Origin: a virus
Direction: 5' to 3' (one strand)
DNA length: 47,922 nucleotides
Virus record (IMG/VR): IMGVR_UViG_3300031652_000008
Coordinates: 1-47,922 of that record
Position 1 is the first letter of the stretch. Each line of letters opens with the position of its first letter. The notes below the pieces were generated by a model. The model had not been told where the DNA came from, searched no databases, and saw only the letters and a program-made list of their open reading frames with translations. Shown here in pieces: positions 19,583 through 47,003 of this stretch. Both the position numbers and the translations under genes were made by a program.

Positions 19583-20364
19583 ATTGTTATTTCGTTTAAT
19601 CGGTGAAATGGAAAACTTTCTTTTAATTCTTTTATGCTTAGACGGCATTTCTTTACGGCGCATTTGTCTATAAGCCCGTATATATCATACTCATTATAAT
19701 TCTCACGCAAATCTAAGGTAGACTCTGCCGGTTCATGTGTTGAGCTATAATAATCCCTGAACTTAAACCCTTTCCCCACTACCTTATCAGATACAGTGAT
19801 CCATTTGTTTGGTATATCATAAGCATCGGCAATAATACACCCGTGCAAGCTGGATGAAATGATATTTTCACACATGTTCATTTTTTCTAAATACGTCAAA
19901 ACGTCCCAGCTTTCAATAATCAAAACCCCTTGTTTTCTTAGGTATTCAGTGAATTTTAACCGCGTATCAACATAATGTGGAATATACCCAAGTTTATATT
20001 TTTTTTCTTTAGTAAATGGAAAAATTTCAGGCAAAATAATTGACGGATCAGCATGTGGTACTTTCAGCCGGACACCAAATTTTACATGAATATAATCCTG
20101 GCTCAGCTTACCTCGCAGAAGATAAATATTTTCCGGATCAAGCGGGCCTGTCCCTATTGTTTTTGACATCACCCCCGTTCCCCAGATAATAGTTGTTTTT
20201 ACCGCGGCGGTCATCAACGATCCGGTGCTGAGCAAAAAAGGTAAATTCTGATTAATAGTCCATTTCAGTTCACACCCTGAAACATACCTTGTTATCAACG
20301 GGTTGATCAGGTCTCCAAAATTTACATCGGCCTTAAAATAAAATGTCCTTATTGTCTTATTCAT
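19579..20364 (-). CDS. Polysaccharide pyruvyl transferase-like enzyme
   Basis: This 261-residue enzyme would move a pyruvyl (ketal) group onto a sugar. Signatures include the N-terminal NFGDLINPLI, a Gly-rich strand WGTGVMSKTIG around residues 60-75, a middle segment with GYIPHYVD, and the C-terminal SSSLHGCIIADAYDIP, where the His is part of the known conserved motif. It is cotranscribed with two glycosyltransferases. It may decorate the virion or the host surface. Confidence 0.78.
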   Translation of the reverse strand: MNKTIRTFYFKADVNFGDLINPLITRYVSGCELKWTINQNLPFLLSTGSLMTAAVKTTIIWGTGVMSKTIGTGPLDPENIYLLRGKLSQDYIHVKFGVRLKVPHADPSIILPEIFPFTKEKKYKLGYIPHYVDTRLKFTEYLRKQGVLIIESWDVLTYLEKMNMCENIISSSLHGCIIADAYDIPNKWITVSDKVVGKGFKFRDYYSSTHEPAESTLDLRENYNEYDIYGLIDKCAVKKCRLSIKELKESFPFHRLNEITI

Positions 20365-21622
20365 TGATCCCTCCCGGAGTGTGACAAACTACGTACCCTG
20401 AGTTTCCACCCTTCTTATAATTACCTGAAATATTCCTAACGCGTTCAATAAACCTAAAATCATGTGTGTATCCATCCAGACCCTTCCAATCAACGCCGAG
20501 ACTTTTTAAATGACATATACAACTAGTTCCGGCACTACCAAGATGAAGTTTAACATTTTTTGGCATTACTTTGTTAAACTGTTTATAATTGTCATTGTAA
20601 TAAATCCAGTCAAACCCGTTGATCCAACTATTAACCCTTTGTAAATGGTCGTCTAAATAATAATCATCAGAGTCAAGATATATTATATATTTTCCTATTG
20701 CTTTGGATATCCCTGCACTGCGAACCTGCCCGGACAAATAAACCTGCTTTGGTATCTGGAGACATTTAACCTGTGAATATTTTGCATATTTTTCAAGGTA
20801 AATTTCTATTGTCCTCTCGCAACCGTCCGAAATGATAATCAGTTCCCATGATTTTAATGTCTGTCTTAATACTGAATCAACGGCACGAATAAATTTAGTT
20901 TCCCTGTCAGAAGCCCCCCCCTTATAAACACCTAAATAAACAGGCATGATAACAGAAAATTTAAATTTTGTCGGTATTTTTGGCTTATAAATTGTTTGTT
21001 GCCTAAAAGTGAGCTTGTTTTTCAACCCGTCGTCAAGTGTTGTTAGCGTTCTGCTTACTATATGATCTACAATCGATCGCACACAAAGTATATGTTTAAT
21101 ATTGTGTTTTTTAAGCTGTCGGACATAAATATTATCAGAAAACCAAAACTGCACGCCTTCATCAAGATAGCTTATCCGGTCAAGAAGTTTCCTGTTTATA
21201 ACAATTGCCCAACCAGAAACATGGTAGCTCACTTCATAACCTGTAATGTATCTTTGCTCTCTTCGTGGCACGTTTGCTGGATTACGCGGTGAAGCCGACA
21301 ACGCCCCGGACTCTTCCATACATTCAAGTAGTTCTTTGGCCCATCCTTCACGAAAAACAACATCATTGTTAAAAAATCCTACATATTGGTTTGTAGTTCT
21401 CTTAAGCCCGAAATTAATTGTACGGTTATAGTTAAATGTTGTAGCATCCTGAATACAATAAAGCATTGAAGCGTAATCGTAAACAGCTTCTTTGTTGTGC
21501 GTCTCGATAACTACGATATTAAAATCCCCCCCTGAGTTATGACAACTATTAATTGCATTTTGTGTCATCCTCTTGAGTGAATTATTTTTTGTCGCTGCTA
21601 TGATTAATATATCAATTGCCAT
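20357..21622 (-). CDS. Two-domain family 2 glycosyltransferase
   Basis: The 421-residue protein contains two GT2-type domains in tandem. The first (residues ~1-205) has an acidic metal-site motif FFNNDVVF and a VSGW pattern near 145-160. The second (~210-420) starts with KFSVIMPVYLG and has the classic YLDSDDYYLDD motif. Such bifunctional enzymes build repeating or branched glycans. It lies between two small genes and the pyruvyltransferase-like gene. Substrates are unknown. Confidence 0.82.
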   Translation of the reverse strand: MAIDILIIAATKNNSLKRMTQNAINSCHNSGGDFNIVVIETHNKEAVYDYASMLYCIQDATTFNYNRTINFGLKRTTNQYVGFFNNDVVFREGWAKELLECMEESGALSASPRNPANVPRREQRYITGYEVSYHVSGWAIVINRKLLDRISYLDEGVQFWFSDNIYVRQLKKHNIKHILCVRSIVDHIVSRTLTTLDDGLKNKLTFRQQTIYKPKIPTKFKFSVIMPVYLGVYKGGASDRETKFIRAVDSVLRQTLKSWELIIISDGCERTIEIYLEKYAKYSQVKCLQIPKQVYLSGQVRSAGISKAIGKYIIYLDSDDYYLDDHLQRVNSWINGFDWIYYNDNYKQFNKVMPKNVKLHLGSAGTSCICHLKSLGVDWKGLDGYTHDFRFIERVRNISGNYKKGGNSGYVVCHTPGGINE

Positions 21623-29102: not shown

Positions 29103-30044
29103 TTAAAATTTCCATCCCCTTTCTTTTGGTGTGACAATCCCGGTATGACCGAGTTTTGCCTCAGGATATAAACAAGGTGTTTCTAATCCTTCCAAAGTTC
29201 TCCATACATACCACAAATCTGCAAGAAAATGCTTTATCATTTTTCGCATTGCGGCAAAATGCCTGTGATTAGGTTTAGTATCTTTCCACATACATTCAAT
29301 CAATTTACCTTGCGTGTTATTTGATTTTGTCATTTTCTCACTTACTGAATAATCCTGTTTGGCCCGGTTGTAAACCTCTGAATAAATGTTTTTATGTTTG
29401 ATGAAACTTCCTGCCATTGAAAATAAAACAGTCCTTAATGTTTTATTACCACCTCCCGAAACGCCTTTTTCATACCTCTTATGGCTTGGTTTATCGTATC
29501 CGCAATAGGCCCAAATACTAGAAGCGTACCGAGCTTTTTCAATTTCCAGATAAACCAACAAATAAGCTACTGAAATTTTCCCGACTGCCTTAATTTGCAG
29601 CGCCTTTTGTGCTATTTCCGGAGCGCCTTTTGATAAGTGTTTTTCAATCCGCTTATCAATCTTGTATAACTGCTTTTTCAATGCCGTAATACTTTCCAGT
29701 AAAAAATTCAATGTTTCTTCATCCATATCATCAGTGCGGCGTTTCATTGCCTTTATCCGGTTTTCGGCTCCAAGTTTCTGTTTCATAATCTGCTCCCTGG
29801 CATCAATTAATATTTTTAAGTTTTTATGCCAGTCATCCCTGTTTCGTAACGTTCCATGCCGTTTCATGTGCTCAACAGGATCGACAATACGGGTGTTTTT
29901 GTCAACGTAAATACCACCGTTTGCTTTTGGATTAATTCTGTCAGTATCAACTAATGACATTTCACCAGCTAATACTTTTCCAGATAATGCACATCTACCG
30001 TTTTGCTTTCTGGAAATCCTTTGTTTTAATTCTTTTTTTGCCAT
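29103..30044 (-). CDS. tasH: TasH-like RNA-guided DNA-binding protein (HNH + Nop/IS110-type domain)
   Basis: The 313-residue protein has an N-terminal HNH-like module (residues ~12-63: QNGRCALSGK, LVDTDRINPKANGG, YVDKNTRIVDPVEHMKRHG). A helical coiled stretch spans ~65-155, and a C-terminal domain (~155-300) resembles the Transposase_20 part of IS110 transposases and the Nop domain (KAVGKISVAYLLVYLEIEKA, then YCGYDKPSHKRYEKGVSGGG and TLRTVLFSMAGSFIKHK). There is no IS110 RuvC-like DEDD domain. Tandem 9+9 arrays lie on both sides. This combination is that of the TIGR-associated (Tas) proteins of the HNH class. The usual DH of the HNH core reads D35-R36, so the general-base His may be missing. 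Alternatives are an isolated IS110 derivative or a decayed homing protein, both less likely given the arrays. Confidence 0.85.
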   Translation of the reverse strand: MAKKELKQRISRKQNGRCALSGKVLAGEMSLVDTDRINPKANGGIYVDKNTRIVDPVEHMKRHGTLRNRDDWHKNLKILIDAREQIMKQKLGAENRIKAMKRRTDDMDEETLNFLLESITALKKQLYKIDKRIEKHLSKGAPEIAQKALQIKAVGKISVAYLLVYLEIEKARYASSIWAYCGYDKPSHKRYEKGVSGGGNKTLRTVLFSMAGSFIKHKNIYSEVYNRAKQDYSVSEKMTKSNNTQGKLIECMWKDTKPNHRHFAAMRKMIKHFLADLWYVWRTLEGLETPCLYPEAKLGHTGIVTPKERGWKF

Positions 30045-30071
30045 TTTGTACGATTTTAAATTTAACTTAAT

Positions 30072-30221
30072 GATTCACTTTATAGATATGGTTATCTTTT
30101 CCATACTGATTCATTTTTTGTTTTGGGTTATCTTTTTATATATGATTCACTTAATTTTTGTGATTATCTTAAGCAATTTGATTAACTTTAATTTTATGGT
30201 TATCTTTCAGCTTCTGATTCA
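30072..30221 (-). repeat. TIGR-like array 1 (upstream of tas)
   Basis: Nine 9-base repeats begin every 18 bases from 30072 to 30216 (the last is truncated to six bases). On the minus strand type A (AAGTGAATC, AAATGAATC, AAGTTAATC) alternates with type B (AAGATAACC, AAGATAATC). The eight 9-base spacers in transcript order are AGAAGCTGA, ATAAAATTA, AAATTGCTT, ACAAAAATT, ATATATAAA, CAAAACAAA, AGTATGGAA, ATATCTATA. The periodicity is exact, with no indels over 150 bases. The array ends 27 bases before the tas start codon and is preceded by an attenuator-like hairpin. The plus-strand reading frame through it is only an effect of the 18-base period. Confidence 0.9.
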
Positions 30222-30325
30222 AAAAAAGCCGCCTGGAAATCGCACAAACCAGACGGCAAAAACTAGAGAAATATCCTCCATAATGTGCGATTCTAACCTG
30301 CCTAAAAAAATCATGAAAAAACTTT
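30222..30325 (-). ncRNA. Leader RNA / attenuator of the TIGR-Tas unit
   Basis: Between the promoter and array 1, the minus strand has a terminator hairpin GCCGTCTGG/CCAGGCGGC (30257-30249 with 30236-30228) followed by seven T at 30227-30221. Its 12-base loop contains TGTGCGATT (30246-30238), exactly complementary to AATCGCACA at 30292-30284 upstream. The two pairings could form a pseudoknot or exclude each other, so the leader could either end transcription early, giving a ~100-base RNA, or allow readthrough into array and tas. Confidence 0.65.
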
Positions 30326-30331
30326 ACTCAA

Positions 30332-30363
30332 CGAAGATACAAAATAATTTTGACTTATGCAAA
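30332..30363 (-). promoter_or_regulatory. Promoter of the TIGR-Tas unit
   Basis: Minus strand: TTTG at 30363-30360, exactly 20 bases, TATCTTCG at 30339-30332 (one mismatch to TAnnTTTG). Its -33 element sits in the T-tract of the terL terminator. It gives the array-tas-array unit its own transcription, separate from the flanking late genes. Confidence 0.72.
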
Positions 30364-30390
30364 TAAAAACCCCCGGACAAACCAGGGGCC
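30361..30390 (-). terminator. Terminator after terL
   Basis: On the minus strand CCCCTGG pairs with CCGGGGG (one G-U) around TTTGT and is followed by TTTTTATTT. It ends the terminase transcript and overlaps the promoter of the TIGR-Tas unit. The ~50 bases between it and the terL stop contain nothing else recognised. Confidence 0.85.
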
Positions 30391-30441
30391 TTAGTATCAA
30401 CCTTAATTTATGAAAAAAATCCAGCTAAAAAGCTGAAAATA

Positions 30442-40695: not shown

Positions 40696-40907
40696 CTTTT
40701 GAACGTTAATAAATATTCCCTAAAATCTCTTTCCTGGTCTTCGTCATATCTTTTATTTTCTGAAATATTGTTGGCTTTCCGGAAAATTCTATGCTTTTCC
40801 ATTAGCCAAACCATATATTTATGATTAGCGTTTTTCTCTGAATAACTATCAGACATCATCCAAAGTTCATAATAATCGTTGAATACAGTATTTAGATACT
40901 TTCCCAT
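40692..40907 (-). CDS. Small hypothetical protein, 71 residues
   Basis: Begins MGKYLNTVFNDYYELWMMSD. Basic and helical, overlapping both neighbours. It lies directly upstream of the adenine methyltransferase gene and overlaps it by 4 bases. Not recognised. Confidence 0.6.
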   Translation of the reverse strand: MGKYLNTVFNDYYELWMMSDSYSEKNANHKYMVWLMEKHRIFRKANNISENKRYDEDQERDFREYLLTFKR

Positions 40908-41068
40908 AATGTTAGTTGTTTTACTTTCTTTTCACTCGAATAATCACACCCAAAAGTCCAACTGCATTTTAATTTGTCCGGATTATAAATGCTTTGAAGC
41001 AATTTGCCTTTCTTGCATTTTGGACAAATTTTGTCTATTAATCTATATAGTTCTTTGGACTGATCCAT
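40892..41068 (-). CDS. Zinc-ribbon protein, 58 residues
   Basis: The start at 41068 (MDQSKELYRLIDKICPKCKK) is chosen because the upstream part lies in the ncRNA A terminator. Two Cys pairs (CPKCKKGK and KCSWTFGCDY) suggest a topoisomerase-type zinc finger. The preceding ncRNA ends one base before the ATG, so translation would depend on readthrough of that terminator. Confidence 0.65.
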   Translation of the reverse strand: MDQSKELYRLIDKICPKCKKGKLLQSIYNPDKLKCSWTFGCDYSSEKKVKQLTLWESI

Positions 41069-41195
41069 AAAAAAAGTCCTTAAAAGAAAAAGACCGGATA
41101 TCCTGTCGCAAAACACTTCCGGCCTAATCCCTCTAAGGACTGTATTAAATTAGTATTTCCGTTTCTTCTTATCATGACAGGATTATTAGTGTTTG
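41069..41195 (-). ncRNA. ncRNA A, pseudoknotted small RNA
   Basis: A transcript of ~127 bases from the promoter at 41202-41233 has three helices. P2 pairs 41134-41141 with 41075-41082 (8 bp). P3 pairs 41118-41124 with 41092-41098 (one G-U). A pseudoknot joins 41176-41183 with 41100-41107 (8 bp), the latter being in the P3 loop. A poly-U end follows P2. A homologue at 46436-46561 keeps all helices with compensatory changes. The GUUUUGCGAC loop is conserved. Rfam class not recognised. Confidence 0.78.
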
Positions 41196-41201
41196 CTTGT
41201 A

Positions 41202-41233
41202 CAAATGTAATCAAAATTATTTTAAAAAACAAA
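41202..41233 (-). promoter_or_regulatory. Promoter of ncRNA A
   Basis: Minus strand: TTTG at 41233-41230, exactly 20 bases, TACATTTG at 41209-41202 (perfect TAnnTTTG). No reading frame starts near the predicted initiation site at ~41195, and a terminator follows ~125 bases later, so the product is an RNA. Confidence 0.8.
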
Positions 41234-41278
41234 TTATAACTATCAATAAATTCAATTGAAACTGAATTTATTTTTAAG

Positions 41279-41587
41279 TTATAGTACATGTAATTCACTT
41301 TCACAAATCAGCATCCTATGTTCTGTTTCTATATTTCTTACTATGTAATATTGCTTTCCATGAAATTCTCCTTTGTGTTCGAGTACCTCATATTTAAATG
41401 TTGTTCCTGTTATAGTTTGTCCATAAACACGTCCTATAACACACGGCAAAACTCCATTGGTCTTGTTGGTTCTCAATAAATTTATCCTATGCCTCAAAAC
41501 AAATAAATCAGCACAAGGAAATTTTGAACCAAACTTCTTAATGAATGATATCCTTATTCTCAATATAAGAATTTTTAATTGTCTCAT
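41279..41587 (-). CDS. Hypothetical basic protein, 102 residues
   Basis: The ATG at 41587 (MRQLKILILRIRISFIKKFG) is preferred to the TTG at 41611. A basic helix is followed by a small beta barrel-like part (VIGRVYGQTITGTTFKYEVL). SH3-like folds in small phage proteins have this look. The gene lies between the cytosine methyltransferase and the ncRNA A promoter. Confidence 0.6.
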   Translation of the reverse strand: MRQLKILILRIRISFIKKFGSKFPCADLFVLRHRINLLRTNKTNGVLPCVIGRVYGQTITGTTFKYEVLEHKGEFHGKQYYIVRNIETEHRMLICESELHVL

Positions 41588-41627
41588 AACCCTAACTAGA
41601 TATATATTCAATTAACATATTTCTATG

Positions 41628-42278
41628 TTAGCAACAAGCACTACGAAGTACCTCATTGCAAAGTTCGTGTGGTATTTTAGATCGTTCATAGTGTCCGTTC
41701 TTTCCTTGCGTTCCTGTTTTTGCTCCACGTCTTGCACTTTCGTGGTGGCAATGTTTATCAATTATATTTCCGTCTTTATCGTATTTGTAATTTCTACACA
41801 TTGGTCGAGGTTTCCAGGTCTTTGAGTTAGTCCATATATCGGTCGGTTTTGCTCTGCTATCTCCATATTGGCAATACCAAACAGTATATCTTTTAAATTC
41901 TTGCATCCAGTTCATGTGCCTTAACATACCTCTTGGGTTTTCAATAAAAAATACCATGTTTGGGTTAATAACTAACCATTCTTTAATCAAACTAATAAAG
42001 TGTTGGTTTACTGTATCACATTTTTTAGCGTAATCACTTTTTGGTTCTGTTTTATTTCGGTGCGTACTTATGGCTGCAATAGTATAAGTAGTACAATCAG
42101 GCGAAGCCCAAACTATATCAGGAATAAATGGCACATCTTCTTTTGTTAGTTCACCAATATCAATTGAAAGGTTTATGTTTTCATATTGTTCCCAATCAAC
42201 TGAAAAAACATTCATTCCTAATTTTTCACCTGCCTTCCCTATGCTTCTCAATCCTGCAAATAATTCTAATAAATTCAT
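41628..42278 (-). CDS. DNA cytosine-5 methyltransferase (short phage type)
   Basis: Motif I is LLELFAGLRSIGKAGEKLG at the N-terminus, motif IV is ASPDCTTYT with the catalytic Cys at ~62, and motif VI is ENPRGM at ~113-118. At 216 residues it is shorter than most C5 methyltransferases, so the target recognition domain is reduced. It fits phage-type enzymes of the SPDCTT group. Probably protects phage DNA from restriction. Confidence 0.85.
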   Translation of the reverse strand: MNLLELFAGLRSIGKAGEKLGMNVFSVDWEQYENINLSIDIGELTKEDVPFIPDIVWASPDCTTYTIAAISTHRNKTEPKSDYAKKCDTVNQHFISLIKEWLVINPNMVFFIENPRGMLRHMNWMQEFKRYTVWYCQYGDSRAKPTDIWTNSKTWKPRPMCRNYKYDKDGNIIDKHCHHESARRGAKTGTQGKNGHYERSKIPHELCNEVLRSACC

Positions 42279-42310
42279 ATCTTGTATTCTAAGTTTTTAC
42301 TAATTAAACC

Positions 42311-42374
42311 GTGCCAGTTGCTAACACGGTGTAAAACCGCATTAAAACGACGGTTTACACCAACCGTTAGGCAC
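42311..42374. repeat. Large imperfect palindrome, attC-like
   Basis: The outer ends GTGCC/GGCAC are complementary, next CTAAC pairs with GTTAG, and the inner part GGTGTAAAaCCG pairs with CGGTTTACACC. Bulges occur on one side, and the loop contains GCATTAAAACG (plus strand). The overall form (7-bp GTTAGGC end, bulged long stem) recalls attC recombination sites, and the loop motif links it to the hairpins at 38027 and 38627. Confidence 0.55.
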
Positions 42375-42383
42375 AATATTTTA

Positions 42384-42800
42384 TTAATTTTTCCCGCCCG
42401 CGCTTTCGATTTCTCTAATTTGTTTTTCTAAAAAATCAGATATAATCAATGTTGTTTGCGATGGGATTTTATTCATGCTGGAATCTTGTTGCACCCAATC
42501 AATTGTTTTTCCGCCAGCCACAATAAAAATAGCCTCATTTTTTGTAGGTATAAATGTTGTTAAAATTCCAAACAAGGCACTTCCAACAAATGCCATCCAT
42601 AACTTTGAAGTAATTTTTTTTCTTTCATTACGGCGTTTAGTTAATTCAACTCCATGATGATTATCATCAAAACCTAAACTCATGACAGCATAAATAATTA
42701 CTGCAATTCCAGCCACAGCCAAAACAATTGCAAACGTTAAAAATAATGCGTGTATTGAATCCAACCTTGTTAGCCAATACAATTTAGAATAAGTACTCAT
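42384..42800 (-). CDS. Membrane protein with two helices, 138 residues
   Basis: Two membrane helices lie at about residues 17-41 (ALFLTFAIVLAVAGIAVIIY) and 68-86. The loop between is basic and the C-terminal half (SQTTLIISDFLEKQIREIES) is soluble. It could be a holin-like or superinfection-related protein. It is followed by the attC-like palindrome. Confidence 0.65.
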   Translation of the reverse strand: MSTYSKLYWLTRLDSIHALFLTFAIVLAVAGIAVIIYAVMSLGFDDNHHGVELTKRRNERKKITSKLWMAFVGSALFGILTTFIPTKNEAIFIVAGGKTIDWVQQDSSMNKIPSQTTLIISDFLEKQIREIESAGGKN

Positions 42801-42815
42801 GTTTTTAATTGATTA

Positions 42816-43214
42816 TTATATATTTAATTTTATCTGTTGAAATTCTTCCCTAAAATGCTTATCTGTTTCCAATCGGTTGCTAATTGATTTAACCGAGTTA
42901 TAAATGATACAACTACTTAAATTGCCTACATGCTTAGCAATTATACTTTTTGATAATTTCAAATCTTTTGCAAGATAATGAATGACCTGACGAGGTAGTA
43001 AATATTCCGTATCCCTGCATTTCATGTTCAAAGATTCAATATCAACATTATAATACGCACAAACTATGTTCCGGTAATAAAATAGTTTTTCTGTTTCAGT
43101 CATGAAGGGGATCTCGTCTTTCCGGTTATTGTTCCAGTTCTCGAAATCTTTTAAAATCTGTGATTTTGTCCTGCCTGTGAAATGGATTATATAAGCAATT
43201 ATATTTTCATTCAT
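42816..43214 (-). CDS. DnaA domain IV-like DNA-binding protein
   Basis: The second half (CRDTEYLLPRQVIHYLAKDL, then LSKSIIAKHVGNLSSCIIYN and SVKSISNRLETDKHFREEF) matches the DnaA C-terminal DNA-binding domain, which recognises DnaA boxes. The N-terminal ~55 residues are not the AAA+ core. This is a stand-alone domain IV beside the DnaB gene. It may bind the phage origin or compete with the host initiator. Confidence 0.8.
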   Translation of the reverse strand: MNENIIAYIIHFTGRTKSQILKDFENWNNNRKDEIPFMTETEKLFYYRNIVCAYYNVDIESLNMKCRDTEYLLPRQVIHYLAKDLKLSKSIIAKHVGNLSSCIIYNSVKSISNRLETDKHFREEFQQIKLNI

Positions 43215-43414
43215 GATATGTTATTTAGGTTAATAAATTCACGTTTCATCCAAAATCGTAATTCAAATCCAAAAAAACATAGTCTCCACTCATATTCAGA
43301 AAAAGAAAACCAATACTTAGTAATCCCGATTAACGTATAATTACCCCAACAACTTTGTTTCCAACGATTTGTAAAAACAATTTCATCTAATTTATGTTTG
43401 TATCTCCTTTTCAT
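43211..43414 (-). CDS. Small aromatic hypothetical protein, 67 residues
   Basis: A basic, Trp- and Phe-rich protein (MKRRYKHKLDEIVFTNRWKQ and GFELRFWMKREFINLNN). It sits between dnaB and the DnaA-like gene with an ATGA overlap. No family was recognised. Confidence 0.6.
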   Translation of the reverse strand: MKRRYKHKLDEIVFTNRWKQSCWGNYTLIGITKYWFSFSEYEWRLCFFGFELRFWMKREFINLNNIS

Positions 43415-43445
43415 GATTCGTTTATTTTAGTTTATATAATTCATT

Positions 43446-44864
43446 CTAAAAAAGCATTTTACCCTGTTTGATCGATTCTTGCTCGAAAGTGCTATCTTCA
43501 TCAATAAATTTATTGATATATTCATTATGCCTCAGAACCACTAAACCGGTTGCACCGTCTGAATTTTTCTCAACGATATTCCAAATTTCATTTGTCCTGA
43601 CATAATCCCTTTCTAGCTTATGATAGTAATCTTCTCTATATAGTGCTATGATTAAATTTGCATCTTGCTCTAAATTTCCGCTATCCCGTAAATCTGACAT
43701 TTGTGGTTTATTTCCTGCCCGACTTTCAACATTCCTATTAAGCTGATGTAATGCAATAACAGGAATTTTCAACTGAATAGCTAATTGTTTTAATTCTCTG
43801 GAAATTTCACCGATTTCATTATTCCGATTGCCTTTATACCGATCAGAAGGTTTTATCAATCCCAAGCGATCGACAATTACAAGATCGAGTTTATTTTTCA
43901 ACTTTTTGGCCCGGCAAATACTTTTTAGTTTCGAAAGTTCAAAAATATTATCGTAAATATCCAGTGAATAAGTGCTAAAGTCATTTTCTGATTCATACAT
44001 TAAATCAATATATTCGTTATCAAAGGTCCCTGTTTTGTAAAATTCAGGATTAATATTTAAATAACTTGTTATAATTCTATCAGATAATTTCTCCTTTAAT
44101 ATCTCAAGGCTAAAATAAGACACGTTTTGTGTTTCGGCTGCTTTTAAAGCAAATTGCAATCCTTCTGCTGTTTTGCCCATAGATGGCCTACCCACTATTA
44201 AAATAAAATCACCATCTTGCCATCCGCCAGTTAATTTATCTAAGTTTCTTGAGCCCGTGGAAATACCAGGAATTTTAACGCCTTCTTGTTTTCGTTTCAA
44301 TGCACGTTCAATACTCAATGAAATGTTTTCTTTTAAGGTTTTCAGCTCAGTGTTTCCCGAGAAAAAGTCGTTAATATCATCCGCCGTTGATTCAAATTTA
44401 TCCAAAACATTATCAATATCACAATCATAAGCGTAACAATCATTGATAATTTCAGTACATTTTTGTATCAATATCCTTTGGAGGCTTTTATATCTTATAA
44501 TTTCAATATGGTCGTTTATATTTGTAGGAAGTGAACTATTTGCTGATAATTGAGTAAGGTAATAAGCACCGCCGATTATTTCAAGTTCGTTTGTTTTTCT
44601 TAATTGTTCGGTAACGGTAAGCAAATCAACGGATTTATTTGTATTATGAAGCAATTTAATAGCATTGAAAATAATTTGATGTGAATCGTTATAAAATGAA
44701 TCTTCTTTTAAGATGTTGATGACTTCGATTAATATCTTCTTATCAATAAGAATAGCACCCAGAATGGCAGATTCAAATTCAACTGCCTGTGGTGGTACTT
44801 TACCTAAATCAGCGACAATTTTATCAATATTGTTTTGAGATTTATATTTTGCTTTATCTTCCAT
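43446..44864 (-). CDS. dnaB: Replicative DNA helicase, DnaB type
   Basis: A 472-residue helicase that unwinds DNA at the fork. The N-terminal domain runs from PPQAVEFESAILGAILID (~24-41) to ~residue 165. The helicase core begins near residue 195 with ISTGSRNLDKLTGGWQDGDF and Walker A GRPSMGKT at 225-232. The Walker B-like LVIVDRLGLI and the ALHQLNRNVESR and KPQMSDLRDSGNLEQDA motifs follow, ending with a region of DNA-binding residues. All motifs are present. Confidence 0.95.
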   Translation of the reverse strand: MEDKAKYKSQNNIDKIVADLGKVPPQAVEFESAILGAILIDKKILIEVINILKEDSFYNDSHQIIFNAIKLLHNTNKSVDLLTVTEQLRKTNELEIIGGAYYLTQLSANSSLPTNINDHIEIIRYKSLQRILIQKCTEIINDCYAYDCDIDNVLDKFESTADDINDFFSGNTELKTLKENISLSIERALKRKQEGVKIPGISTGSRNLDKLTGGWQDGDFILIVGRPSMGKTAEGLQFALKAAETQNVSYFSLEILKEKLSDRIITSYLNINPEFYKTGTFDNEYIDLMYESENDFSTYSLDIYDNIFELSKLKSICRAKKLKNKLDLVIVDRLGLIKPSDRYKGNRNNEIGEISRELKQLAIQLKIPVIALHQLNRNVESRAGNKPQMSDLRDSGNLEQDANLIIALYREDYYHKLERDYVRTNEIWNIVEKNSDGATGLVVLRHNEYINKFIDEDSTFEQESIKQGKMLF

Positions 44865-44911
44865 TTATAAAATCCATTAAAACGAAATTTTATACTTAAT
44901 ATTAGCAATTA

Positions 44912-45322
44912 TTAATTGCTTAACCAGCATAAATCACAACAATTTCCACCATCTTTTTTTTCTGAATCGGTTAATTTATTTCCGCAAATAACGCAATTAA
45001 CAGAATTGCTATATATAGCGCTCTCGTTCGTTATTTTTGCCTGAGCGCGCTTTAATTCATCCGCTAAGAAAGTACAATGTATATCTTGAACATTTTTTAC
45101 TTTTCCGTCTGGAAGAATAATGCAAAATGCTAATCCACCTGTATTTAAAGTTCTACCCCCATCAGTTGTACCAAGTAGTTCACATTTTTGGTCTTGATAC
45201 ATTACATATCGTTTTTCTGTTTTTGTTGATTTGATAGCATCACATAATGATTTTGTCATTATTCCTAATGCTTTAACCGATTTGTCAAAAATCGTTGCAA
45301 TTGTATTTTCTTGTTTTGTCAT
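44912..45322 (-). CDS. Hypothetical protein with C-terminal zinc-binding motif
   Basis: The ATG at 45322 (MTKQENTIATIFDKSVKALG) is preferred over 45352. A central domain resembles a small beta fold (KCELLGTTDGGRTLNTGGLA) and the C-terminus has CVICGNKLTDSE and CCDLCW, a zinc ribbon. Lies upstream of dnaB. Role unknown. Confidence 0.65.
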   Translation of the reverse strand: MTKQENTIATIFDKSVKALGIMTKSLCDAIKSTKTEKRYVMYQDQKCELLGTTDGGRTLNTGGLAFCIILPDGKVKNVQDIHCTFLADELKRAQAKITNESAIYSNSVNCVICGNKLTDSEKKDGGNCCDLCWLSN

Positions 45323-45388
45323 GATTTTAATAAATAACTGGCTATAATACACAATGTAAATCAGTTGCTATTAGCCTTGTTAATAAAT

Positions 45389-45416
45389 TGAAGCGTCTTG
45401 TCTGGCAATCGCTTCA
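45389..45416. terminator. Weak hairpin after the DUF1376 gene
   Basis: TGAAGCG and CGCTTCA are exact inverted repeats with a 14-base loop. The following T-content is low, so a pausing or weak termination signal is all that can be proposed. Confidence 0.35.
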
Positions 45417-45428
45417 TATTGCCATTTG

Positions 45429-46040
45429 TTATCGGTTATAAAGTTTTAAAGCCTCTTCTGTTGTCATTGGTTTACCACATTTTGGATATTGTTTTTTTAG
45501 TTTGTTTATAAAGTGGTTCATATATTCATAAAAAGGCTGATTTGTATCAGTCGAAACCAAATGCTGATTAATAAACAATTCAGCTTCTTTTTTTATCGTT
45601 TCGATTGAAATTTGAAAAAATTCAGCTTTTAATAAATTATATATTTTAATAATATTATCTTCATTTATAATTTTATTTATATTTTCATCTTTATTTTCAT
45701 TTTCCATATGAGAGGTCACATGACCTTTATTTTTTTGTTTTTTTGTATACTGATTTATACCTTTTAAATTGTTTCTTCTGCTTTGCGTGAAAGCCTTTCG
45801 TTTATTTTTTTCAATCTCTAATCTTTCATTATAATATAATCCTTTGTCGTCAATTTTAAATTTATCCTGAATTTTTATCCAAATTTGACCTACTGTTTGA
45901 GCTATCATATGACCACTCATATGACCTCTATTGAATTGCAGCATCAATAATTCCATATAAGCTCCTTTTTCTTCAAATGTCATTCCAAGCGTACCTCCTA
46001 GCCAATCATTTGGATAGAATAAAAATGCAGGGTCTTTCAT
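45429..46040 (-). CDS. DUF1376 (YdaU-like) replication-region protein
   Basis: The N-terminal FLFYPNDWLGGTLGMTFEEK with GAYMELLMLQFNRG is the DUF1376 signature, a winged-helix-like domain found in phage replication modules. The C-terminal third is charged and helical and may contact the helicase. The order with DnaB downstream is as in other phages. It may serve as initiator or helicase loader, by inference. Confidence 0.8.
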   Translation of the reverse strand: MKDPAFLFYPNDWLGGTLGMTFEEKGAYMELLMLQFNRGHMSGHMIAQTVGQIWIKIQDKFKIDDKGLYYNERLEIEKNKRKAFTQSRRNNLKGINQYTKKQKNKGHVTSHMENENKDENINKIINEDNIIKIYNLLKAEFFQISIETIKKEAELFINQHLVSTDTNQPFYEYMNHFINKLKKQYPKCGKPMTTEEALKLYNR

Positions 46041-46423
46041 TTTTTTATTGAAATTATCATATTAATAATATCATATATGCAATCTATTTCAAAAGGATTT
46101 AATTCTCTAATTAAATTAATTATATTACAAATTGAACCAATATTGTCACAAAAATTATTTTGAATAATAATTGAAATATCTTTCATATTTGAATGTAAAT
46201 ATTCATGGCATTCATTACATAACAATAAAAAATTATCATCCTCATATTCCCAAATTTTATGATTTGGCAAATATATCTTATGATGCAATGATAATTGTTT
46301 TTCATCTTCTTGACATATTTCACAAAACAAATCTTCTGTACTATATTTTTTCTTAAAATACTCAAAATATTCAAGCCGTTTTTTTTGCCATTTCGGATGT
46401 AGGTATTGTTCTTTGTAGGTCAT
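46037..46423 (-). CDS. HNH endonuclease-like protein
   Basis: This 128-residue protein carries CEICQEDEKQLSLHHKIYLP (Cys pair, then the HH of the HNH core) and LLLCNECHEYLH (second Cys pair and final His). It lies just after ncRNA B, the terminator of which precedes the ATG by 12 bases. Such short HNH proteins in phages help in DNA packaging or act as homing or defence nucleases. Confidence 0.82.
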   Translation of the reverse strand: MTYKEQYLHPKWQKKRLEYFEYFKKKYSTEDLFCEICQEDEKQLSLHHKIYLPNHKIWEYEDDNFLLLCNECHEYLHSNMKDISIIIQNNFCDNIGSICNIINLIRELNPFEIDCIYDIINMIISIKK

Positions 46424-46435
46424 AGCTATATAATT

Positions 46436-46561
46436 AAAAAGTCCTCAAAAGAAAAAAGCCGGATGCATGGTCGCGAAACCCTACCGGCTTAAATCCTCTA
46501 AGGACTGTATGAGAAATGGAATATCTGCTACTCTTAACCATGCTTTTAAATTGAGTTTCGC
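46436..46561 (-). ncRNA. ncRNA B, pseudoknotted small RNA, homologue of A
   Basis: A ~126-base RNA, aligned end to end with ncRNA A. P2 pairs 46499-46506 with 46440-46447 (one G-U). P3 pairs 46484-46490 with 46456-46462 (7 bp). The pseudoknot is 46537-46543 with 46465-46471 (7 bp), with different bases from A at every position except the ends. The loop GUUUCGCGAC is shared. It ends in a poly-U tract after P2. No coding frame fits it. Confidence 0.78.
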
Positions 46562-46567
46562 TGAGTA

Positions 46568-46595
46568 CAAATATACAAAACTTTTCGGAATAAAA
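46568..46595 (-). promoter_or_regulatory. Promoter of ncRNA B (weak -33)
   Basis: Minus strand: TATATTTG at 46575-46568 matches TAnnTTTG fully. The -33 position, 20 bases upstream, reads ATTT, so only partly matches TTTG. The start would be near 46561. Confidence 0.6.
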
Positions 46596-46598
46596 AAA

Positions 46599-46796
46599 TT
46601 AAATTGTATTAAATTCAATACTTTTTAACAATCGTTTTATCTCACGTTTCCGGGCCGGTTTAGCCTTGATTTCAAAGTTCCAAAAACTTTTTCCAGTCCG
46701 GTTCACATGCCGAAATGATACTTCATCAGGCTTGATATTAAGGTTCTTTAGCTGTTCGCTGATTTTTACTGTGTCCATATAAACAGGCTTTTCCAA
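46599..46796 (-). CDS. Small hypothetical protein, 65 residues
   Basis: Starts MEKPVYMDTVKISEQLKNLN. Basic C-terminal half (EIKAKPARKREIKRLLKSIE) with a beta/alpha pattern in the first half. Lies directly before the ncRNA B promoter. Not recognised. Confidence 0.6.
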   Translation of the reverse strand: MEKPVYMDTVKISEQLKNLNIKPDEVSFRHVNRTGKSFWNFEIKAKPARKREIKRLLKSIEFNTI

Positions 46797-46814
46797 ATAA
46801 ATTTAATTGTTTCA

Positions 46815-47003
46815 TCAGCACAAAGATTTAATCAATTCAGTATAAACCCATCCAGGCCAAAATTCAGAAAGTTCATCAATCTCCTTTTCGGTCATCGACC
46901 GGCCTTCATAATCAGCAGATTCAATATAAGCATCTGCAAAATCAGGGTAATCCTTTGTGTCAATCCCTGAAAATTTTATGTTGCTTATTTTTTCAAGTTC
47001 CAT
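46815..47003 (-). CDS. Small acidic hypothetical protein, 62 residues
   Basis: It begins MELEKISNIKFSGIDTKDYP and contains DFADAYIESADYEGRSMTEK, a pattern shared with short acidic proteins in many phages. The role is not known. Confidence 0.65.
   Translation of the reverse strand: MELEKISNIKFSGIDTKDYPDFADAYIESADYEGRSMTEKEIDELSEFWPGWVYTELIKSLC

Follow-up and report, generated by a model that had tools for sequence, protein, structure and literature searches.

Two structured leaders in a phage genome

The window analysed here is the whole of IMG/VR virus record IMGVR_UViG_3300031652_000008 (47,922 bases), and the elements under study are two homologous RNAs, A and B, that lie on its minus strand, each just ahead of a protein-coding gene (Table 1). 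Both have a common build. A TAnnTTTG box is followed by an AT-rich 5′ part and a two-storey hairpin whose lower stem is P2 and whose upper one is P3; a U-rich tract comes after the upper storey and another U-tract after the lower, and the coding region then begins. The two can be aligned over their full length, with 61 of 77 columns of the P2/P3 segment identical, and their minimum free energy (MFE) folds, computed without pseudoknots, have z-scores of −3.74 (A) and −3.31 (B) against dinucleotide shuffles. Together with the covarying helices described below, these results uphold the proposal of a first-pass annotation that A and B are homologous, structured, pseudoknotted RNAs under selection, and the limits it had given (41069–41195 and 46436–46561) lie at most 2 nucleotides (nt) from the ends predicted here.

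The window virus appears to be a Bacteroidetes-type phage, a label taken from its promoter boxes and portal protein rather than from an identified host. In tblastn searches the portal protein matched 26 phage records, 24 of them named after Bacteroidota hosts (for example Polaribacter phage P12002L, 26.0%); the best two matches were Rhodobacteraceae phage LS06-2018-MD05 (32.4%) and Pseudanabaena phage Pan5 (28.4%). The TAnnTTTG boxes that had been reported ahead of A and B are present. In Flavobacterium psychrophilum such a box occupies −12 to −5 from the start site (PMC9723704). The box alone proves nothing, since the motif is not enriched in the window (75 observed versus 75.55 expected).

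In the first-pass annotation A and B were independent noncoding RNA genes, and on this point we depart from it. The start codon lies 0 nt (A) or 12 nt (B) past the last U-tract, leaving no space for another promoter, and we therefore read A and B as probable leaders of the downstream operons. In both, a hairpin followed by a U-tract lies between the predicted promoter and the first codon. The arrangement reads as that of attenuator-like 5′ leaders and not of free-standing genes; terminated transcripts about 128 nt long may nevertheless occur. (Note that the terminators are predictions; a simple terminator scan confined to loops of 3–8 nt returned neither A nor B.)

Two helices join the 5′ end to the hairpin loop

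A single pseudoknot, between the 5′ part and the P3 loop, with paired bases that differ between the copies, had been described previously. We recovered it as helix Y (ATCCTGTC/GACAGGAT in A, GCATGGTT/GACCATGC in B) and found that it is one of two such helices, the overlooked one being helix X, in which the extreme 5′ end of the RNA pairs with the other half of the P3 loop. Helix X comprises GCAAACAC/GTGTTTTGC in A, with one bulged U and seven uninterrupted pairs (AAACACT/AGTGTTT), and nine pairs, GCGAAACTC/GGGTTTCGC, in B. X covaries between A and B, as does Y, and their loop-side strands, X′ and Y′, are adjacent in the P3 loop. The loop motif GTTTyGCGAC is indeed one base short of identical in the two copies, as had been noted, and the T/C change tracks helix X, because it is compensated there by an A/G change.

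When the first 42 nt were shuffled (mononucleotide shuffles, with the P3 loop boundaries fixed by us beforehand), 0 of 1000 shuffles scored as high for the pair of helices in A, and likewise in B. Single helices are less extreme: among 5000 shuffles each of the 75 upstream nt, eight pairs including G–U arose in 644 (A) and 230 (B), and without G–U eight pairs arose in 18 for A and seven pairs in 61 for B. A descriptor combining P3, the U-tract and both upstream helices matched only A and B on the two strands of the window, and had zero matches on two shuffles of one strand. Cross-pairing between A and B is weaker than cognate pairing yet present, the best scores on our script's scale being 20 and 21.5 for cognate and 16.5 and 15.5 for cross combinations. 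Given the order X–Y–X′–Y′, the adjacency of X′ and Y′ and the short X–Y linker, it is improbable that the two helices can stack into a single rod, and they may be mutually exclusive; this is a point of geometry and not a result.

Table 1. Positions of leaders A and B, their parts and the genes that follow them in the window.
Feature	Position	Strand	Remarks
A, leader RNA, predicted start to end of last U-tract	41069..41197	-	
A, -7 promoter box TACATTTG, Bacteroidetes sigma-A type	41202..41209	-	predicted +1 = 41197
A, X strand GCAAACACT, +2 to +10	41188..41196	-	
A, Y strand ATCCTGTC	41176..41183	-	
A, P2 5′ strand	41128..41141	-	partner 41075-41088
A, P3 hairpin	41092..41124	-	X′ 41108-41117 and Y′ 41100-41107 make up 18 of 19 loop nt
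A, U-rich tract after P3	41082-41091	-	
A, P2 3′ strand and final U-tract	41069..41088	-	ATG at 41068 immediately next
Gene directly after A	40892..41068	-	58-amino-acid (aa) zinc-ribbon-like protein (CPKC...CSWTFGC, by eye); no Pfam match
B, leader RNA	46436..46563	-	
B, -7 promoter box TATATTTG	46568..46575	-	predicted +1 = 46563
B, X strand GCGAAACTC, +3 to +11	46553..46561	-	
B, Y strand GCATGGTT	46536..46543	-	
B, P2 5′ strand	46494..46506	-	partner 46440-46452
B, P3 hairpin	46456..46490	-	loop: X′ 46473-46481, Y′ 46465-46472
B, U-rich tract	46447-46457	-	overlaps the end of P3 and continues past it
Gene after B, 12 nt past last U	46037..46423	-	128-aa HNH protein; PHROG HNH families, best 4.2e-9
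Later genes of the B operon	43446..46040	-	primosomal-type protein 45429-46040, unknown 44912-45352, DnaB-like helicase 43446-44864

Related leaders keep the pairing in other letters

Homologues in which the proposed pairs are lost had been named as a finding that would speak against the RNA. We made this comparison, and in three close homologues (loci L048, L187 and L195) both helices are kept with new letters; the two-helix score was matched by 0 of 1000 shuffles in L048 and L187, as in A and B, and by 5 in L195. In other related leaders (L210, L190, L191, L214, L215 and L216) pairing of the 5′ strand to the P3 loop takes the form of a single long helix or of two nested ones, with 23 bp in L210, about 20 bp with one bulge in L191 and 10 bp in L214, L190 having two copies. 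In Tenacibaculum phage JQ (L272) and the contig G009 copy (L331) a small hairpin carries the 5′ strand as its loop, at +9. For 12 of the 14 leaders tested, no more than 14 of 1000 shuffles reached the observed score. These shuffles overstate the independence of L048, L195, L210, L216, L272 and L331, which were found by searches that reward such pairing or such a loop; A and B came from the first-pass annotation, and the L187, L190, L191 and L214 loci were found through their genes.

The searches were of several kinds. A pattern of loop plus U-tract matched 54 viral and at least 120 genome stretches, giving 152 distinct contexts that were ranked by P3; among the best 25 of these, which were inspected singly, only L048 was accepted besides A and B. 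Its leader precedes a gene for a relative of the window HNH protein (48% identity), and a search with these two HNH proteins returned five loci, the L048 contig again, L187, L189, L190 and L191. A search with the primase/helicase of these phages found 143 relatives, and we retained the 80 best loci. In 149 sources (1,316,372 bases, with L010 left out as GC-rich noise), the descriptor together with a promoter gave 11 distinct matches at a score of at least 70, a cut-off picked after the scores were known; reversed DNA gave none (best 69), and at 66 or above the counts were 14 real and 4 reversed. The promoter and loop limits had been added because the second descriptor was noisy, many of its matches having large loops that we treated as chance. 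Exact-sequence patterns for A and B in viral contigs (2 and 4 matches, by eye all chance) were likewise set aside. The first descriptor was also run on all loci collected up to that stage, lower-ranked contexts included, and L117 and others that scored within the range of A on it were judged to be chance.

Rfam cmscan of the window and seven related loci at the gathering threshold had 0 matches, and in E-value mode on 40900–47000 two weak matches, neither at A nor at B. In 50,697 phage records blastn found no match to B or to the leader at L248, and among eight named phage or plasmid stretches examined a leader of such architecture was accepted only in Tenacibaculum phage JQ, a published isolate. 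Single-sequence protein searches returned nothing for the HNH protein and two distant helicase loci (L009 and L010) without such a leader.

Further candidates were rejected. For L215, the upstream strand first listed falls ahead of the promoter; we replaced it with another pairing, at +1. Short open reading frames (ORFs) begin near Y in A, B, L048, L187 and L195; a conserved leader peptide was rejected because A and B, by eye, read the shared P2 sequence in different frames. The match in L340, with a descriptor score of 80, is an array of repeats that flanks a helicase gene on the wrong side. This array, at 365–530 in a Bacteroidota genome and adjoining a phage-type primase/helicase, contains repeats with AAGAGCTATGCTTTTGAG that may resemble a CRISPR-type repeat.

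Twelve leaders have a free 5′ strand, and in 10 of them the first base of X falls at +0 to +3 from the predicted start (L190a 0; L187, L190b, L215 and L216 +1; A, L191 and L195 +2; B and L210 +3), the exceptions being L048 (+6, box TATATTGC) and L214 (+8). Provided that the predicted promoters are used, the pairing strand is therefore the 5′ end of the transcript. In a mechanical search, the first open ATG lay 9–39 nt past P3 in 14 of 14 leaders. Both regularities would suit a lock on the 5′ end, in which the terminus held in the P3 loop guards early messenger RNA (mRNA) from 5′-end-dependent decay, or a start-codon hairpin that sets translation, in a phylum, the Bacteroidetes, without Shine-Dalgarno sequences. 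Neither function needs a U-tract, which L191, L210 and L215 lack, and by eye the start regions of L191 and L210 (CTGTAGTTATG and GTGTAGTTATG) duplicate a portion of the 5′ strand, with which they could compete in pairing to the loop. We nevertheless regard this explanation as rather improbable, since it accounts neither for the U-rich tracts that follow the hairpin in most of the 14 leaders nor for the faster divergence of the pairing letters described below. The repeat at the start codon is TGTAGT, at about 285–300 in L191 and about 2275–2290 in L210.

The 5′–loop helix recurs in sub-types III and IV

A pattern for the 5′ hairpin of sub-type III matched 52 stretches. Over all loci, with contexts shorter than 190 nt skipped, there were 30 distinct contexts that matched it; L310 was dropped as a chance match, leaving 29. 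In all 29 distinct sequences the loop of the inner hairpin pairs with a strand that lies a short way past the 5′ hairpin, forming a 7-bp helix that occurs in 11 versions of its letters (hereafter the code) and has a G–U pair in one sequence. In the alignment A6, which includes the pseudoknot, 97.8% of cells pair, compared with 26.5–45.9% under sliding, and double changes occur at 24 of 40 pairs, a count equalled by 0 of 500 shuffles; further pair types were equalled by 6 of 500. (In these counts the misaligned L241, L253, L299 and L303 were treated as unpaired at three pairs, and related rows can beat shuffles even without structure.) Given the slide control and the existence of 11 codes, chance is no tenable explanation for sub-type III. 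The six distinct sequences of sub-type IV are 97.7% paired, with double changes at 8 of 37 pairs (0 of 500 shuffles); further pair types, reached by 329 of 500 shuffles, are no evidence by themselves. An equivalent of the 5′–loop helix of A and B is thus kept in 29 of 29 and 6 of 6 distinct sequences of the related sub-types, as the comparison of homologues had called for.

Sub-type III leaders have a predicted alternative fold, in which CTAAnTGT is free to pair with an upstream copy of ACATTTAG as long as the terminator strand ACATTTAGGGG has yet to be transcribed. Of 28 truncated leaders, 25 have the upstream hairpin in their MFE fold, and of 28 full ones, 27 have the terminator stem (L289 was dropped, its 3′ strand not being found by the script). 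The hairpin search matched 14 of 20 records, with one copy each, and a sub-type III model applied to eight genomes, with 150 candidates scored per genome and without a positive control, found 0 of 8.

The code diverges faster than the rest of the leader

In sub-type III, divergence of the code exceeds that of the rest in 247 of the 262 pairs with different codes (the four misaligned rows were left out, the pairs are not independent, and some 16–20 of the other columns are constant by construction through the search pattern). Mean pairwise divergence is 0.38 in the code, 0.29 in H1, 0.22 in H2, 0.17 in P3, 0.07 in the unpaired rest and 0.008 in P1, the last being low by construction; the other stems vary too, less than the code. 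The most similar pair, L282 and L317, differs at 6 of 14 code positions, all of them compensated, and at 1 of 110 other columns, and between A and B 7 of 17 X′Y′ columns differ versus 9 of 60 others. Code and downstream gene are decoupled. In a survey of 51 loci, one of which (L315) our script left uncoded though another listing assigns it a code, CAATCAC stands before three clearly different genes and the protein sequence MKTKLIITN follows four codes. Wherever a genome has two leaders their codes differ (3 of 3: A and B, L190a and L190b, and contig G009).

The diversification of the code would be best accounted for if the pairing partners could also meet in trans. The terminated leader would then be a small antisense RNA whose 5′ strand or loop pairs with nascent leaders of the same code and terminates them, giving dosage feedback on replication genes and exclusion of co-infecting phages of the same code. 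For such action speak the change of code on a steady background, its independence of the downstream gene and the differing codes of leaders that share a genome, and the nearest precedent is satellite phage P4, whose CI RNA pairs with seqA and seqC (PMC4825925). Against it stand the partial orthogonality of A and B (X of B makes seven pairs, one of them G–U, with X′ of A), the divergence of H1 and H2 as well, the possibility that pairing in cis alone drifts, and the fact that the codes of two phages from one dataset, which differ in 3 of 3 cases, would do so by chance with probability 0.59. Moreover, the phage integrase family PF00589 was found in 0 of 19 records including the window (possibly fragments; other integrase types were not searched), and relatives are rare among 395 Bacteroidota genomes, the helicase occurring in 4 and the sub-type III pattern in 1, at a site without structure by eye. 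Classical prophage immunity is unlikely on these two grounds, and interference between lytic phages remains a reading. Overall we hold action in trans to be rather unlikely.

A wider proposal, that lytic phages recognise their own kind by a coded RNA in which a lock (the 5′ strand) and a key (the loop) co-diversify under selection, we put forward as doubtful. If true, it would mean dosage control, a way to shut out rivals of the same code that needs no prophage state, and several operons of one phage run on separate codes; an RNA-based incompatibility code of this kind would be a new form of phage–phage interaction.

A structured RNA that precedes early operons and has fixed parts flanking a variable helix would also be expected of a leader that senses a ligand or protein, in the manner of a riboswitch or through autoregulation by the product of the first gene. 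Autoregulation is argued against by the occurrence of the same RNA with the same code before unrelated first genes. We noticed no invariant core common to the sub-types, and since sub-type III was searched for by its 5′ hairpin, the constancy of that hairpin is built in; a sensing leader is, in our view, very unlikely.

A possible switch on read-through

We consider the chances evenly balanced that A and B, as their sequences suggest, are the 5′ leaders of two early operons and act as RNA switches on read-through. Transcription would start at, or a few bases from, strand X, and the long hairpin with its U-tract would terminate or strongly pause it. The proportions of terminated leader and of full mRNA would then depend on the state of the 5′ strands, bound to the P3 loop or free. 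X and Y as possible alternatives to each other would suit such a switch, and its trigger could be a protein or else another transcript with these same segments. The architecture, the conservation of pairing and the position are visible in the sequences, while termination or pausing and its dependence on 5′ pairing are inferred.

Several findings weigh against a read-through switch. A and B are known as predicted transcripts, from sequence alone. The antiterminator-like hairpin was seen only in sub-type III and was not identified for A and B, and in the alignment none of its pairs has a double change, with a hint of compensation, by eye, in L302 only (GACTTTAG/CTAAAGGC). In L191 (223 of 1000, where the script split the long helix) and L331 (409 of 1000) the pairing is no better than shuffles. 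Among the 14 leaders examined, L191, L210 and L215 are without a U-tract behind P3, which means that not all leaders can act through intrinsic termination; translation control or 5′-end protection would fit these three too. Finally, homology between the sub-types rests on position and architecture: a sub-type III covariance model finds sub-type IV (L230 and L244) and L190, rightly placed, at E 0.5–2.3, its antisense-strand matches at E 0.07–0.1 are no worse than these, and it does not detect A or B.

Comparison with known systems

P4 CI RNA and the c4 RNA of P1/P7 are the closest systems for comparison. In satellite phage P4, CI RNA with seqA and seqC combines an untranslated leader of phage replication genes, an RNA segment that can pair with an earlier part of its own leader, and premature termination (PMC4825925). 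The leaders described above likewise precede replication genes, and in them a hairpin loop is complementary to a segment further upstream; premature termination is predicted for them too. Unlike P4 CI RNA, they have no Rfam match, have other promoters and come from records without PF00589, and their action in trans is a proposal. Nor is a general second target downstream, of the kind of seqC, evident; none was noticed by eye in A and B, and the only candidate, again by eye, is the short TGTAGT repeat near the start codons of L191 and L210.

Plasmid rep-gene antisense attenuators of the pT181 and pIP501 type switch between alternative terminator and antiterminator folds under an antisense RNA made from the opposite strand. 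Candidate alternative folds in a replication-gene leader are seen here as well, in sub-type III, whereas here both partners lie in one transcript. SAM-II and preQ1 riboswitches also place a pseudoknot near the start codon; we noticed no conserved ligand core here, and the pairing letters are the most variable part measured. HEARO, or omega RNA, lies ahead of an HNH gene and works with IscB, whereas the HNH proteins of the present phages are short (about 97–165 aa) and the RNA also occurs without HNH (L195). In the literature within reach, subscription papers being mostly outside it, we found nothing describing these leaders. The leaders would constitute new families of RNA, placed where the replication genes of Bacteroidetes-type phages are controlled. 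For this phage group, to our knowledge, few regulatory RNAs have been studied, and a helix that is hypervariable yet self-complementary is a strong and easily tested signature.

Gene context and further observations

Downstream of the leaders, those in other uncultivated phages included, the gene order is HNH, another small gene or none, then a DUF6291 (L187, L191, L195 and L210) or Lin1244-like protein (L190, L214 and L248), then a primase-helicase (with Toprim and DnaB_C domains in L187); in the A operon of the window a DNA methyltransferase gene lies further downstream. Most leaders adjoin initiator or helicase genes, though the search began from those genes, and the transcript might on that account prime DNA synthesis or bind an initiator as part of a replication origin. 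The two copies in the window, about 5 kb apart, with A ahead of the zinc-ribbon and, further on, methyltransferase genes, speak against an origin element, which we consider most improbable.

The zinc-ribbon and HNH genes do lie directly downstream of A and B, as the first-pass annotation had stated, and the RNA has no link to those proteins. A leader stands in front of the HNH gene at five of nine distinct loci with an HNH match (L048, L187, L190, L191 and L214), and in L195 it lies directly ahead of the DUF6291 gene; the four HNH loci without a leader and L195 without HNH led us to reject an HNH-specific RNA. Phages Pan5 (L185) and Abp95 (L186) are also without a leader. A small ORF that by eye looks like a helix-turn-helix gene takes the place of the leader ahead of HNH in L189 (4825–5001), L199 and L209. 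Protein and RNA regulators may substitute for each other ahead of HNH genes.

Elsewhere in the window, a transposase-like gene lies at 29103–30044 (minus strand) between the portal and terminase genes (phrog_4285, 5.5e-36), with PF02371, of the IS110/IS116 type, at 19.5 bits, just under the cut-off of 21.3. In the roughly 400 nt upstream of it (30045–30441), only a small ORF on the opposite strand was listed, and an IS110 bridge RNA could sit there. A glycosyltransferase-like protein (phrog_22332, 1.7e-23) is encoded at 20357–21622, also on the minus strand.

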